A DNA stretch of 64,000 bases from Streptomyces mobaraensis (GTDB lineage Bacteria; Actinomycetota; Actinomycetes; Streptomycetales; Streptomycetaceae), in the NCBI RefSeq assembly GCF_020099395.1, contig NZ_CP083590.1, positions 3,162,001 to 3,226,000 of the forward strand, in the 5' to 3' direction. Positions 38,619-51,254 of the stretch are shown in pieces. The notes under the pieces are model-generated. The model had not been told where the DNA came from, searched no databases, and saw nothing but the letters and a program-made list of their open reading frames with translations. The position numbers and the translations under genes are program-made. How positions within the stretch are numbered: the stretch's first letter is position 1; each line of letters opens with the position of its first letter.

Positions 38619-38654
38619 GGCCGTTCCGCCGCGGTGGTGCCGCGGCCTACGGGC

Positions 38655-39336
38655 CTACGGCTCGAACTTGTAGCCGAGGCCGCGCACCGTCACCAGGTAG
38701 CGCGGGGCCCCCGGGTCCGGCTCGATCTTGGCGCGCAGCCGCTTGACGTGGACGTCGAGCGTCTTGGTGTCGCCCACGTAGTCGGCGCCCCACACCCGGT
38801 CGATGAGCTGCATCCGGGTCAGCACCCGCCCGGCGTTCCGCAGCAGCATCTCCAGCAGGTCGAACTCCTTCAGCGGAAGGTCGACCTTGCCGCCGGCGAC
38901 GGTGACGACGTGCCGGTCCACGTCCATCCGCACCGGGCCGGCCTCCAGCGCCGCGGGCGCGACCTCCTCGGGCTCCCCCCCTGCGACGCAGCACCGCGCG
39001 GATGCGGGCGACCAGCTCGCGCGAGGAGAACGGCTTGGTGACGTAGTCGTCGGCCCCTATCTCCAGGCCCACGACCTTGTCGATCTCGCTGTCCTTGGCG
39101 GTGACCATGATGACGGGCACGTTGGAGCGGCCCCGCAGCTGCCGGCAGACCTCGGTGCCGGGCAGGCCCGGCAGCATCAGGTCGAGCAGGACGAGGTCGG
39201 CGCCGTTGCGCTCGAACTCCTCCAGGCCCTCGGGGCCGGTGGCCGCGATGGCGACCTCGAACCCCTCCTTGCGCAGCATGTAGGACAACGCGTCGCTGAA
39301 GGACTCTTCGTCCTCGACGACGAGCACTCGGGTCAC
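38655..39336 (-). pseudogene. phoP: phoP response regulator, frameshifted in the interdomain linker
   Basis: Residues 1-118 are an intact OmpR-type receiver (MTRVLVVEDEESFSDAL, phosphoacceptor Asp52 in LLDLMLPG, Lys in VTKPFSS). A run of seven G on the coding strand (38975-38981 on the given strand as C) has one base more than the frame allows. With six G the reading RRRGEPEEVAPAALEAG continues into the winged-helix domain (KVDLPLKEFDLLEMLL to GLGYKFEP, 38655-38933). As given, the receiver runs into a junk tail ending at 38647. The intact product would be about 226 residues. PhoP is the master regulator of phosphate starvation and lies downstream of phoR. A sequence error or a real phase-variable mutation are both possible. 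Confidence 0.85.
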
Positions 39337-39412: not shown

Positions 39413-40669
39413 TCACCGGTGCGGCTCCGGGGTGGCGAGGCCGTGGAGGTGGCCCGTCGCCTCGGCCGCGTCCCGGGGGTCGTCGGAGTCGAGGCGGCGC
39501 AGCCGGAGCCGGTCGCGGCCGACGCCCGCCTCCGGGAGGCGGAGGGTGAAGGTGGAGCCCTGGCCCTCGGCGCTCCAGACGGTGACCTCGCCGCCGTGCG
39601 ACGCGGCCACGTGTTTGACGATCGACAGGCCGAGGCCGGTGCCGCCGGTGGCGCGGGAGCGGGCGGGGTCGACCCGGTAGAAGCGTTCGAAGACCCGCTC
39701 GCGGTCCTTCTCGGATATGCCGATGCCCTGGTCGGTGACGGCTATCTCGATCAGGTCGCCGCCGGGCGCGGCCACTCTGCGGGCGGCGATCCCCACTCTG
39801 GTGCGGGCGGGGCTGTAGTTGACGGCGTTCTCGACGAGGTTGCCGAGGGCCGCGGCGAGCTGGCCCCGGTTGCCCCAGACGTGCAGGCCGGCGGCGCCGC
39901 CCGAGGCCATGGTGATCTGCTTGGTGCCGGCCTGGTGGCGGCAGCGGTCGACGGCCTCGGCGACGAGCTCGTCCACGCGGACGGGCTCGGCGTCCTCCAG
40001 GGGGTCGTCGTTCTGCACCCGGGAGAGGTCGATCAGCTCCTGGACCAGGTTGGTCAGCCGGGTGGCCTCGATCTGCATCCGGCCGGCGAAGCGGGTGACG
40101 GCCTCGGGGTCGTCGCTGGCGTCCATCACGGCCTCGGAGAGCAGCGACAGCGCGCCCACGGGGGTCTTGAGCTCATGGCTGACGTTGGCGACGAAGTCCC
40201 GGCGGACCGCCTCGATACGGCGGGCCTCGGTGAGGTCCTCGACCAGCAGCAGCACCAGGCGGGACCCCAGCGGCGCCACTCGCGCGGAGACCGCGAGGGC
40301 CTCCCCGCGGCCGGTGCCGCGGCGCGGGAGGTCCAGCTCGACCTGGCGTATCTCCCCGTCGCGGCGGGTGTCGCGGGCCATCTGGAGCATCGCGTCCACG
40401 GCCAGCCGGCCGCCGCGCACCAGGCCCAGGGCGTACGCCGCCGAGCTGGCCTTGACGACGGCGTCGCCCTCGTCGAGGACGACGGCGGAGGAGCGCAGCA
40501 CGGACAGGACGGTGTCGACGCCAGGCGGCAGGACCGCGTCGGTGTGCAGCGAGCTGCGGCTGGGGCGTGCCTGGTCGCGCTCGCTCCAGCGGAACGCCAG
40601 CATGGCGATCACACCGGTGCACAGGCCGGCGAGGGCTGCCGCTGCGGCGACGGCCGCGTCCACGTTCAT
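39413..40669 (-). CDS. phoR: Phosphate sensor histidine kinase PhoR
   Basis: The protein is 418 residues. One N-terminal membrane helix (about 5-27) is followed by a PAS-like domain (about 50-145) and HisKA with His165 in FVANVSHELKTPVGAL. The HATPase part has NLVENAVNYSP, DQGIGIS and GTGLGLSIVKH. It matches the SenX3/PhoR kinase, which phosphorylates PhoP on phosphate shortage. ATG 40669 is divergent from phoU with a PHO box between. phoP follows 76 bases downstream. Confidence 0.92.
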   Translation of the reverse strand: MNVDAAVAAAAALAGLCTGVIAMLAFRWSERDQARPSRSSLHTDAVLPPGVDTVLSVLRSSAVVLDEGDAVVKASSAAYALGLVRGGRLAVDAMLQMARDTRRDGEIRQVELDLPRRGTGRGEALAVSARVAPLGSRLVLLLVEDLTEARRIEAVRRDFVANVSHELKTPVGALSLLSEAVMDASDDPEAVTRFAGRMQIEATRLTNLVQELIDLSRVQNDDPLEDAEPVRVDELVAEAVDRCRHQAGTKQITMASGGAAGLHVWGNRGQLAAALGNLVENAVNYSPARTRVGIAARRVAAPGGDLIEIAVTDQGIGISEKDRERVFERFYRVDPARSRATGGTGLGLSIVKHVAASHGGEVTVWSAEGQGSTFTLRLPEAGVGRDRLRLRRLDSDDPRDAAEATGHLHGLATPEPHR

Positions 40670-40742: not shown

Positions 40743-40771
40743 GTTCACCTTGAGGTCGGCGGTGGTTCACT
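40743..40771. promoter_or_regulatory. PHO box in the phoR-phoU intergenic region
   Basis: GTTCACC (40743-40749), GGTCGGC (40754-40760) and GTTCACT (40765-40771) start at exact 11-base steps, the spacing of the direct-repeat units bound by streptomycete PhoP. Two units match the GTTCACC core well; the middle one is poor. Confidence 0.7.
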
Positions 40772-40882: not shown

Positions 40883-41572
40883 ATGCGGGACGCGTACCAC
40901 GAGGAGCTGGACTCGATAGGCGACGGGCTGGTCGAAATGGCGCGGCTCGTCGGCTCCGCCATAGGGCGCGCCACGACGGCGATCCTGGACGCGGACCTCA
41001 AGCTCGCGGAGGCCGTGATCGCCGGCGACAGCAAGGTGGACGACCTCCAGCGGGACCTGGAGGCGCGGGCCATCGCGCTGCTGGCCCGGCAGCAGCCGGT
41101 CGCCACGGACCTGCGGATCGTCGTGACGTCCCTGCGGATGAGCGCCGACCTGGAGCGTTCCGGCGATCTGGCGCAGCACGTCGCGAAGCTGGCCCGGCTG
41201 CGCTTCCCGGACACGGCGGTCCCGCGCGACCTGCACTCCACGGTGCTGGAGATGGGCCAGCTCGCCCAGCGGCTGATGGCCAAGGCGGGCGAGGTGCTGA
41301 TCACCAAGGACGTGGACCTGGCGCTCCAGCTGGAGCAGGACGACGACGCCATGGACCTGCTGCACCGCGCCCTCTTCCAGCATCTGATGGACGACCGCTG
41401 GCAGCACGGCATCGAGACGGCCGTGGACGTGACCCTGCTGGGCCGCTACTACGAGCGGTTCGCGGACCACGCCGTCTCGGTCGCCAAGCGCGTCGTCTAC
41501 CTGGTCACCGGGGAGCACGCCGACGAGCTCAACCAGACGGCGGGCGCCCCCGGCGCGGGGGAGAGTTCGTGA
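40883..41572 (+). CDS. phoU: Phosphate signalling regulator PhoU
   Basis: The protein is 229 residues, all helical, with two PhoU repeats. The metal-cluster motifs are near EARAIALLARQQPVATDLRIVV...DLERSGDLAQHVAK and YYERFADHAVSVAKRVVYLVTGE. PhoU dampens PhoR activity in response to phosphate uptake. ATG 40883 follows GAGAGAAGGA. It is divergent from phoR under a shared PHO box. Confidence 0.95.
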   Translation: MRDAYHEELDSIGDGLVEMARLVGSAIGRATTAILDADLKLAEAVIAGDSKVDDLQRDLEARAIALLARQQPVATDLRIVVTSLRMSADLERSGDLAQHVAKLARLRFPDTAVPRDLHSTVLEMGQLAQRLMAKAGEVLITKDVDLALQLEQDDDAMDLLHRALFQHLMDDRWQHGIETAVDVTLLGRYYERFADHAVSVAKRVVYLVTGEHADELNQTAGAPGAGESS

Positions 41573-47605: not shown

Positions 47606-48759
47606 CGGGCGGGCACCCCCATCCGCTGCCAGACCCGGACGAAGGCGAAGCGCGCGGCCTCCACCTCGTAGCGCTGGTCCGCGCGGAGCACGCCCAGGGC
47701 GTACGCGGTGGCCGGGGCGATGCGCGGGGTGCGGGCGGCGGCAGCGGCGTAGGAGGCGGCCTCGGCCGCGTCGCGGTGGCGGTCGAGGGCCTGGCCGGCG
47801 CTCAACAGCCTTATGGTGAGGCCGGGTTCCACCTCCGTCTGGTGCTGTTCGTCGAGCACCTCCTGCGCGTACCGGCGCAGCCGCACCAGCAGGCGTACCT
47901 GGTGCCAGGGGGCGTCCTGCCGGCTCTCGGCCGCGGGGACGCCCGCGTCGGCGAGGGCGTGGGAGAGCGCCTCGGCGTTGTAGGGCAGGCCGGCGGCGGT
48001 CAGCGGCAGGGTGTCGACCTCCTCCAGGAGCAGTCGGTGGCTCTGCTCCGCCAGCAGCGGCAGGGCCTCCTGGGCCCGCAGGTCGTGGGCGGCGGAGTCG
48101 AGCGGCGGGTCGGTCGACAGGACGGCGACGGCGTCGGCGACCGCGTGGAAGCGCGCGGAGCCGAGCGCCTGGAGGGCCGCCGAGTGGGCGCGCGTCCGGG
48201 CCAGTGTGAGCTGGCGTTCCAGCAGCGCGCCGGCGCGCGCGGCGCCCACGGCGGGTGCGGCGGCGCTCCCGGCCTCGGCCGCGCCGGACAGTCGGTGCAA
48301 CGCGCCCCGCAGCCGCGCGAGCCGGGCCGCGCAGGCGTACTCGCGTCCCAACGTCTCGGTCAGCCAGGCGAGTTCGGAACGGAACTGATCGGTCCAGGGC
48401 ACCTCGGTCAGCGGGCGGAAGACCTGGAGCGTCCCCGCGATGCGGCGGGCGGCGGCGCGCAGCAGCCGGACGGCCTCGGCCGCCTCCTCGGCGGCGGTCC
48501 CGGCGCCGTGCCCGCTGTCGCCGTGCAGCCGCAGGCCGCGCAGGAACTCCGTCGCCTGCTGGTGGAGGTAGCGGGCGAGGACGTCGGCGGCGCTGCCGGT
48601 GCCGTGCGCGGGCCTGCCGTCGCCGGGCGCGCGGCGCGCCTGGGGCGGTGGCGCGGCGGCCGTGTCCGTCGTCGTGTCGGTCGTCGTGTCGGTCGTCGTG
48701 TCGGTCCGCCCACCGGCCGCGGTGAGGGCGCCCGAGGCGTCACGGGGTCGCTGTGCCAC
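47602..48759 (-). CDS. CHAD domain-containing protein
   Basis: The protein is 385 residues. A low-complexity N-terminus with repeated Thr-Asp-Thr-Thr units (12-base DNA repeats at about 48661-48707) is followed by the helical CHAD domain (about 60-380) rich in conserved Arg and His ([46 protein letters not shown]). CHAD proteins bind polyphosphate. The start overlaps the end of ppk by 20 bases. Confidence 0.9.
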
Positions 48760-51151
48760 GCCGGCGCCTCCGGGCGTCGATGAGGATTTCCTGGACGTTG
48801 CGCAGCGGCCGGCCGTCGGCGTCGGTCGCGTGCCGGGTCCAGCCGCCGTCCGGGCCGAGGTGCCAGGACGCGGTCCGGTCGGACATGCCGAGTTCCAGCA
48901 GCCGGCTGAGCGAGGCGCGGTGCGCGGGGTCGGTGACCCGGACGAGCGTCTCGATGCGCCGGTCGAGATTGCGGTGCATCATGTCGGCGCTGCCGAGCCA
49001 CACCTCGGGCTCACCTCCGTTCGCGAAGGCGAAGACGCGGGAGTGTTCCAGGAACCGCCCGAGGACGCTGCGCACCCGGATGTTCTCCGACAGCCCGGGC
49101 ACGCCGGGCCGCAGGGCGCAGATGCCGCGCACCCATACGTCCACCGGGACCCCGGCGCGCGAGGCGCGGTAGAGGGCGTCGATCACGGTCTCGTCCACCA
49201 TCGCGTTGACCTTGATCCGGATGGAGGCCGGCCGGCCGTCCCGGCGGTGGGCGACCTCGCGCGTGATGCGGGCGACCAGGCCGTCGCGGAGCGAGCGGGG
49301 GGCGACGAGCAGCCGCCGGTAGGTCTGCCGGCGGGAGTAGCCGGACAGCCGGTTGAAGAGGTCGGACAGGTCGGCGCCCACCTGGGGGTCGGCGGTGAGC
49401 AGTCCCAGGTCCTCGTAGAGCCGGGCGGTCTTCGGGTGGTAGTTGCCCGTTCCCACGTGCGAATAGCGTCGGAGGGTGTCGCCCTCCTGCCGTACCACCA
49501 GCGACAGCTTGCAGTGCGTCTTCAGGCCGACGAGCCCGTAGACGACGTGGCAGCCGGCCTCCTCCAGCTTCCGCGCCCACTTGATGTTCGCCTGCTCGTC
49601 GAAGCGCGCCTTGATCTCGACCAGGACGAGCACCTGCTTCCCGGACTCCGCGGCGTCTATCAGCGCGTCGACGATCGGGGAGTCGCCGGACGTCCGGTAC
49701 AGCGTCTGCTTGATGGCGAGGACGTCCGGATCGGCCGCGGCCTGTTCGAGGAAGGACTGGACGGAGGTGGAGAACGAGTCGTACGGATGGTGGAGCAGCA
49801 CGTCCCGCTCGCGCAGGGCGGCGAACACGTCCGGTGCCGTCGCGGACTCCACCTCGGCCAGATCGCGGTGCGTCCCGGCGACGAACGTGGGGTACTTGAG
49901 CTCCGGCCGGTCCAGGGCGGCGATGTGGAACAGCGCGGTGAGGTCGAGCGGCCCCGGCAGCGGGTAGACCTCCGCGTCGGAGATCTTCAGCTCGCGGACG
50001 AGCAGGTCGAGGACGTACGGGTCGATGGACTCCTCGACCTCCAGCCGCACGGGCGGGCCGAAGCGGCGGCGCATGAGCTCCTTCTCCAGCGCCTGGAGCA
50101 GGTTCTCCGCGTCGTCCTCCTCGACCTCCAGATCCTCGTTGCGCGTCACCCGGAACATGTGGTGCCCCAGCACCTCCATCCCCGGGAACAACTCCTCCAG
50201 GTGCGCCGCGATCACGTCCTCCAGCGGCACGTACCGCTGCGGCGACGCCTCCAGGAACCGCGACAGCAGCGGCGGCACCTTCACACGTGCGAAGTGCTCA
50301 TGCCCGCTGACCGGGTTGCGGACGACCACGGCCAGGTTGAGCGACAGCCCGGAGATGTACGGGAAGGGGTGCGCCGGGTCGACGGCGAGCGGGGTGAGGA
50401 CGGGGAAGATCCGCCGGCGGAAGAGGGTGAAGAGGCGTGCCTGCTCCTTCTCGGTCAGCTCGGCCCAGCGGATCAGGTGGATGCCCCGCTCGGCCAGCTC
50501 GGGGGCGACGTCCTGCTGGTAGCAGGCGGCGTGCCGGGCCATGAGCTCCCGGGAGCGGGTCCAGATCAGCTCCAGCACCTCGCGCGGCTGGAGGCCGGAC
50601 GCGGAGCGGGTGGCGACGCCGGTGGCGATGCGGCGCTTGAGGCCGGCGACGCGGACCATGAAGAACTCGTCGAGGTTGCTCGCGAAGATCGCCAGGAAGT
50701 TGGCGCGTTCGAGGAGCGGTGTCGCCGGGTCCTCGGCCAGCTCCAGCACCCGCTCGTTGAACGCCAGCCAGCTGCGCTCGCGGTCCAGGAAGCGGTTCTC
50801 GGGCAGCGGCTCGCCGTCCCGGGCCGGGTCCTGCTCGCGGTCGTCGTAGCCGTCCGCGTAGTCGATCCCGGCGTCCGCCGCGCGGGCCTCCGCGTAGGGA
50901 GCCGCCGCGTAGGGAGCCGCCGGGTAGGGGGCCACCGGATGGGGGGCGGGCTCGGGCCCGTCGTACGCGTCGTACTCGGCGTAGCCGTCGAGGTCGGCGT
51001 CCAGGTCGGGTTCCGGTTCGGGGACGTCCGGGGCGGCCGGGCCCGCCCGGTGCGCGGCGGCGAGGAAGCCGCCGGGGCGCGGGCCCGCGTACCGGTCGCC
51101 GGAGGGCCCCTCCGCCTCCCGGGGGCGCGAGAACGCCGGAGGATCTGCCAT
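48740..51151 (-). CDS. ppk: Polyphosphate kinase
   Basis: The protein is 803 residues. A disordered acidic N-terminus of about 120 residues with [14 protein letters not shown] repeats precedes the PPK1 core: [39 protein letters not shown], the phosphohistidine in [15 protein letters not shown], and [22 protein letters not shown]. It reversibly makes polyphosphate from ATP, and in streptomycetes it affects antibiotic output under phosphate limitation. ATG 51151 follows GAGGGT; an upstream in-frame start at 51247 is less likely. A PHO-like sequence lies upstream. Confidence 0.94.
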
Positions 51152-51254
51152 ACCCTCATTGTTCCGCTCGTCCGGGAGGGCGGGCACGGCGGAGACCGCG
51201 GCGGCGCGTGGCCTGCGTTGTCGTGCGTGGGGGGCGACCGGCTGCATTCCGCAA

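Follow-up and report, generated by a model that had tools for sequence, protein, structure and literature searches.

The deposited genome of Streptomyces mobaraensis carries a phoP gene whose receiver and DNA-binding domains lie in different reading frames, with the frame change at a run of seven G in the linker. We regard the out-of-register run as probably a homopolymer error left behind in the deposited assembly, and we infer that this and similar lesions in the record arose in sequencing or assembly, not by mutation of the cultured strain. If so, the organism would carry an ordinary intact phoP, the cell would make normal PhoP, and the G-rich codons of the linker would turn the site into an error-prone run. 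The error reading is favored because +1 lesions recur on G/C runs in unrelated genes of the record, and because the out-of-frame share of runs is high at length seven while no decay is seen behind the shift. What carries it is the uniform sign of the lesions and their tie to G/C runs, not the number of frame switches flagged in the record.

The frame break in phoP and its neighborhood

On the minus strand of the window (the whole stretch of DNA analyzed, 64,000 nucleotides), positions 38981..38975 read as seven G, C on the plus strand, with an A at each flank. The phoP open reading frame (ORF) that begins at the GTG at 39336 passes through this run and extends to 38647 (38647..39336, minus strand), giving a protein of 229 residues in which the receiver is followed by about 110 out-of-frame Arg/Gly-rich residues and the stop lies just past the normal end. 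In translation, the normal phoP sequence after the run sits in the neighboring frame and ends at a stop at 38655, and the out-of-register part, stop included, covers 38655..38975 on the minus strand. Pfam placed a receiver domain in the first frame (PF00072, E 1.9e-30, residues 4-113; 38998..39327, minus strand) and found no Trans_reg_C domain in the 229-residue protein that starts at the phoP GTG. The winged-helix Trans_reg_C domain was recovered from the second frame (PF00486, E 1.4e-29; 38664-38891), and the closest solved chain by sequence to this piece is that of RegX3 (2oqr, E 2e-47).

A codon-usage HMM that takes no account of homopolymers, and whose training set was the long ORFs of this genome, placed the frame change at 38977-38988 and, by its criteria, flagged no other frame switch in the 64-kb window. 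A cruder run-based test listed one more place in the window, 47616, which we took for a gene boundary. In tblastn with a relative's PhoP as query, residues 1-121 matched in one frame and residues 119-226 in another, each piece at 96% identity. A preliminary description of this DNA had proposed a one-base frameshift of phoP at the seven-G run, with receiver and DNA-binding domain both present in different frames; the sequence, the ORFs, the HMM and tblastn confirm the frameshift, and the PF00072 and PF00486 matches confirm the two domains. With the same query, no second phoP copy was found in the genome: the next best matches were only paralogues (49-51% identity), and the idea of a backup copy taking over was rejected.

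At 38984-38975 the linker encodes Arg with the rare codon AGG, and G-rich sequence comes next; most of the relatives whose linker was read have CGC or CGG and then GGC here. The run is long because of this combination of AGG and G-rich sequence.

The surroundings of the gene are those of a Streptomyces phoP: the PF00072 receiver is present, phoR adjoins it and phoU is divergent. What is missing is PF00486 in the same frame as the receiver. The sensor kinase gene phoR (39413..40669, minus strand) is an intact ORF with HisKA and HATPase_c domains in Pfam; it matches the PnpS and PhoR models, but below their cut-offs. phoU (40883..41572, plus strand), divergent from phoR-phoP, is intact and scores above the cut-off of TIGR02135 (E 5.3e-56), as does the intact polyphosphate kinase gene ppk (48740..51247, minus strand) with NF003922 (1275 bits), alongside a match to PF02503. 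A pattern search gave a weak candidate PHO box with three mismatches between phoR and phoU (40743..40760, plus strand). Ten matches with three mismatches were found in the window against a mean of 5.93 in shuffled sequence, and 10 of 100 shuffles reached ten, so that the number of such matches is not above chance. The earlier statement that phoR, phoU, the PHO box and ppk all remain therefore holds for the three genes, which are open; for the PHO box there is no more than a weak candidate.

PhoP and its linker across the genus

Comparing the linker with that of other streptomycetes, as the preliminary description had suggested, singled out this genome. The survey took in 110 loci, 30 (this genome included) plus 80 named ones, with some genomes counted twice. 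The linker was readable in 107; it is out of register in this genome and in one frame in all 106 others. Among these 106 other readable loci there is one run of six (L032, S. zhaozhouensis) and none of seven. A pattern search of 392 genus genomes found the AGG-type linker in 17, and only the copy in this genome is out of register. Of the 16 in-register copies, 15 have four G and one has six.

Using a relative's PhoP as query, we obtained some match in all 392 genus genomes and a score in the full-length range in 388 (best E of 7.3e-139 or lower, coverage being known only for the top of the list). Besides this genome, the exceptions are G345, in which phoP (L233, 1507) changes frame inside the DNA-binding domain in a context without a run of five or more; G010, in which the match ends at residue 66 and is followed by N; and G140, an assembly of 780 contigs in which only paralogues were found. 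By these scores a PhoP predicted to be intact is the rule in the genus, and a seven-G phoP run was encountered in no other genome sequence compared. The full-length scores in 388 of 392 genomes count in favor of a sequencing error.

We also searched public proteins for the shifted form, scoring only the 7,988 candidates that shared most words with it. Eleven singleton proteins (P0001-P0011) have out-of-frame PhoP-like C-termini, and in two of them, P0006 and P0008, the frame changes by eye in the same linker as in the window's phoP. Within the candidates scored, the presence of the same shifted protein in other strains was rejected, as the 11 singletons are 54-89% identical over part of the query and none is a copy. 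Literature searches on Streptomyces phoP frameshifts and on spontaneous mutation and strain improvement, which covered titles and the beginnings of abstracts, gave no clearly fitting published Streptomyces phoP frameshift among the matches listed, and examples may exist in print.

The DNA-binding domain behind the shift shows no sign of relaxed selection in its codons. Against relatives' loci (96 of the 97 supplied entered the codon comparison), it differs on average at 27.6 codons synonymously and at 2.7 nonsynonymously, close to the 25.9 and 2.4 found among the relatives' loci themselves, and 26 of the 96 loci have as many or more nonsynonymous differences. The domain thus looks normally constrained at the level of sequence, and decay of the downstream domain, none being seen in these codon differences, was rejected. 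The receiver has 3.0 nonsynonymous differences, more than most relatives (only 3 of 96 reach 3.0), which is a counterpoint to the error reading. Among the loci compared, that of S. klenkii has the fewest phoP codon differences.

A downstream domain that is intact and apparently under normal constraint, together with a shifted frame that meets no early stop, would also suit a reversible switch or programmed recoding, in which slippage of replication, RNA polymerase or the ribosome restores PhoP in a fraction of cells or transcripts. We consider such an arrangement very improbable. The long run is not kept even where the linker is of the AGG type, with four G in 15 of the 16 other genomes and six in one, and the 106 other readable loci supply a single run of six and none of seven. 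RNA folding, assessed over one 101-base stretch, is no stronger than in shuffled sequence (z 0.61, 139 of 200 shuffles folding at least as well). In the sampled part of the genome, 10 of 13 coding runs of seven remain in frame. Thus relatives do not share a long run at this position, as they would at a contingency locus, and the site lacks both a stimulating RNA structure and a frameshift kept among orthologues (106 of 106 in one frame), which mark programmed frameshifting. A kept switch was rejected, as the run is not conserved in relatives, and structure-driven recoding was rejected on the folding score. We accordingly give next to no credence to the idea that a real seven-G run reversibly turns the phosphate regulon on and off in this strain; were it true, part of the mycelium would be without phosphate control and would make secondary metabolites at high phosphate. 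The preliminary description had put forward loss, a switch and, as the duller reading, a homopolymer error. A homopolymer error is the best supported of the three, and the switch is disfavored by a run that is not kept in the genus.

Frameshifts on G/C runs elsewhere in the record

To place the phoP lesion in its record, we applied the HMM to 2,033,134 bases of the 7.67-Mb assembly, consisting of the window and 99 further pieces, mostly from mid-chromosome and with the plasmid contig included. It flagged 16 places (11 + 2 + 3) where the frame switches on one strand with no stop codon at the point of change. A G/C run of five or more lies in the context of 11 of these 16, against 3 of 13 in comparison sequences, which comprised the 80 named loci (797,543 bases, 7 events) and 200-kb samples of two single-contig genomes, G009 and G005 (3 events in each sample). 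From the counted coding runs, we estimate that by chance roughly one context in five holds such a run.

Eight of the 11 run-associated switches were judged to be within-gene frameshifts, on G or C runs of five to seven: phoP, a ricin-type gene (L116), a peptidase (L126, about 2989), a transporter (L131, about 11394), nuoN (L134, about 1600), a hydrolase (L147, about 6219), a serine hydrolase (L206) and a biotin-dependent carboxylase (L223, about 16985). The switches dropped before this count (L116 at 1683 and 1193, L130, L136, L144, L152, L153 and L228) were read, by eye and without a homology search, as the start or end of a gene, as a non-coding tail or as a break that has no run; those with a G/C run in context are L136 (-1), L144 (+1) and L152 (-1). 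All eight retained lesions shift by +1 (or -2), for which the chance is 0.004 at equal odds of sign. Leaving our judgment aside, the sign is + in 9 of the 11 run-associated switches (chance 0.03). The run-associated events in the comparison sequences (n=3) are all of the opposite sign.

Relatives back six of the eight, namely phoP, hydrolase, peptidase, nuoN, carboxylase and transporter; the ricin-type gene and the serine hydrolase are counted without such backing. Both pieces of nuoN lie in one frame in 11 of 11 relatives' loci and in two frames here, and the same holds for the carboxylase (11 of 11). The pieces of the transporter, in two frames here, are in one frame in both loci tested (L295 and L297, from 11 loci besides our own in which the other matches were short or partial). 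For the hydrolase and the peptidase, intact orthologues were identified by eye in relatives. The hydrolase of S. mobaraensis NBRC 13819 = DSM 40847 is 95% identical to the one here, and the peptidase is 90% identical to one labeled S. mobaraensis and 95% identical to that of another Streptomyces. We rejected these alleles as a same-strain check, since identities of 95% and 90% denote other strains; as sequences, they show that apparently intact orthologues exist, not the state of the genes in this strain. No orthologue of the ricin-type gene was found among 20 relatives, in which matches outside its own copy were of 63 bases or less.

Frame changes become more frequent with run length. Among coding G/C runs with both sides clearly coding, and with ordinary gene ends included, a same-strand frame change occurs at 28 of 2,628 runs of five, 6 of 285 runs of six and 3 of 13 runs of seven. 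At five and six, most of these changes look like ordinary gene ends; the three out-of-frame runs of seven are phoP, the hydrolase and the carboxylase. This rise fits sequencing error, and natural slippage equally. The record thus shows both features that an error would leave, the same lesion elsewhere in genes that are intact in relatives and a frequency that increases with run length.

Excerpts of published work describe residual errors of this kind. PacBio-only Streptomyces assemblies carry residual homopolymer errors, and long-read polishing of one Streptomyces assembly left 205 indels, almost every one of them in a G or C homopolymer (PMC4832174). Mutation lines of S. ambofaciens, according to an excerpt of that study, gave 3 insertions and 6 deletions in the wild type and 9 and 10 without nucS, for indels of 1-4 bases in homopolymers and elsewhere (PMC11109965). 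Because these lines show both insertions and deletions, the one-sided +1 set found here does not resemble a natural spectrum.

Several points speak against an error: the assembly is of good overall quality, with 2 contigs and 99.9% completeness; the sign is + in 9 of the 11 switches, not in all, when our judgment is left aside; two of the eight lesions are without backing from relatives; and the G009 and G005 pieces carry more flagged switches per base, at three per 200 kb each. Records of this kind often contain flagged switches, and this genome does not stand out by their number. Outside the window, which was left out of the density estimate because it had been picked for phoP, there are 7 lesions in 1.97 Mb, or about 27 when extrapolated to the genome.

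These data also bear on whether PhoP has been lost. A genuine and very recent frameshift in the sequenced culture, by slippage during laboratory or industrial passage, would have inactivated PhoP, leaving a receiver that carries about 110 Arg/Gly-rich residues in place of its DNA-binding domain, and low phosphate would not induce the regulon. A seven-G run is a plausible slippage site, and G345 likewise shows a phoP frame break. The species is in industrial use (PMC3622987), and an excerpt on S. filipinensis reports that phoP deletion mutants grow and give a higher filipin output (PMC6283541). In the excerpt of the S. ambofaciens study, loss of NucS barely alters indel rates in Streptomyces (PMC11109965), and slips may therefore stay uncorrected. 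We nevertheless think loss unlikely. Lesions of the same sign in unrelated conserved genes would require several recent mutations together, and PhoP is retained, by score, in 388 of the 392 genus genomes. With a real run, this strain of an industrially used species would be without the master regulator of its phosphate response, and effects on phosphate scavenging, sporulation and metabolite production would follow.

If the run is instead the assembly error that we favor, the record is a warning: a reader would take PhoP, the complex I subunit NuoN and the biotin-dependent carboxylase for broken, and miscalls of the same sort may affect regulators in other high-GC genomes.

Further irregularities were seen in these records. 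The second contig (C2; L112, L113) resembles a linear plasmid: its 29,134 bases end in terminal inverted repeats of 141 bases. Two aligned blocks of it, of 17,009 and 6,470 bases, are identical to the S. mobaraensis DSM 40587 plasmid NZ_CP094263. This agreement over 23.5 kb in all counts against the error reading, although only about 0.1 lesion is expected there at the chromosomal rate. The DSM 40587 plasmid, which is annotated as circular and is 5,277 bases shorter, differs from C2 in one scrambled stretch of about 365 bases, at which one of the two is probably misassembled. In L116 (1193-1683), a helix-turn-helix regulator-like gene has two apparent -1 frame changes with no G/C run of five or more, and may be a real pseudogene. 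L084, from Streptomyces sp. P3, shows six apparent frameshifts within 10 kb; the gene hit by one of them is phoR by sequence, and five of the six lack a run of five or more in context. It is probably a poor record.

Comparison with known systems

Phase-variable homopolymer loci, known as contingency loci, exist in bacteria. The phoP site resembles them in having a mononucleotide run within a coding region; it differs from them in that the run is not kept among relatives and that a single length is seen in the strain's record.

With long-read Streptomyces assemblies the record shares single-base lesions on G/C runs, which in an excerpt of one study were mostly called insertions, a term used there without naming the assembly that carries the additional base (PMC6923854). 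The density here, 7 in 1.97 Mb, is below the totals given in excerpts of the published studies (PMC6923854, PMC4832174).

The locus is most directly compared with the PhoP systems of Streptomyces. Like them, it has both domains, the linker, phoR before phoP and a divergent phoU; unlike them, it has the two domains in different frames, parted at the seven-G run.
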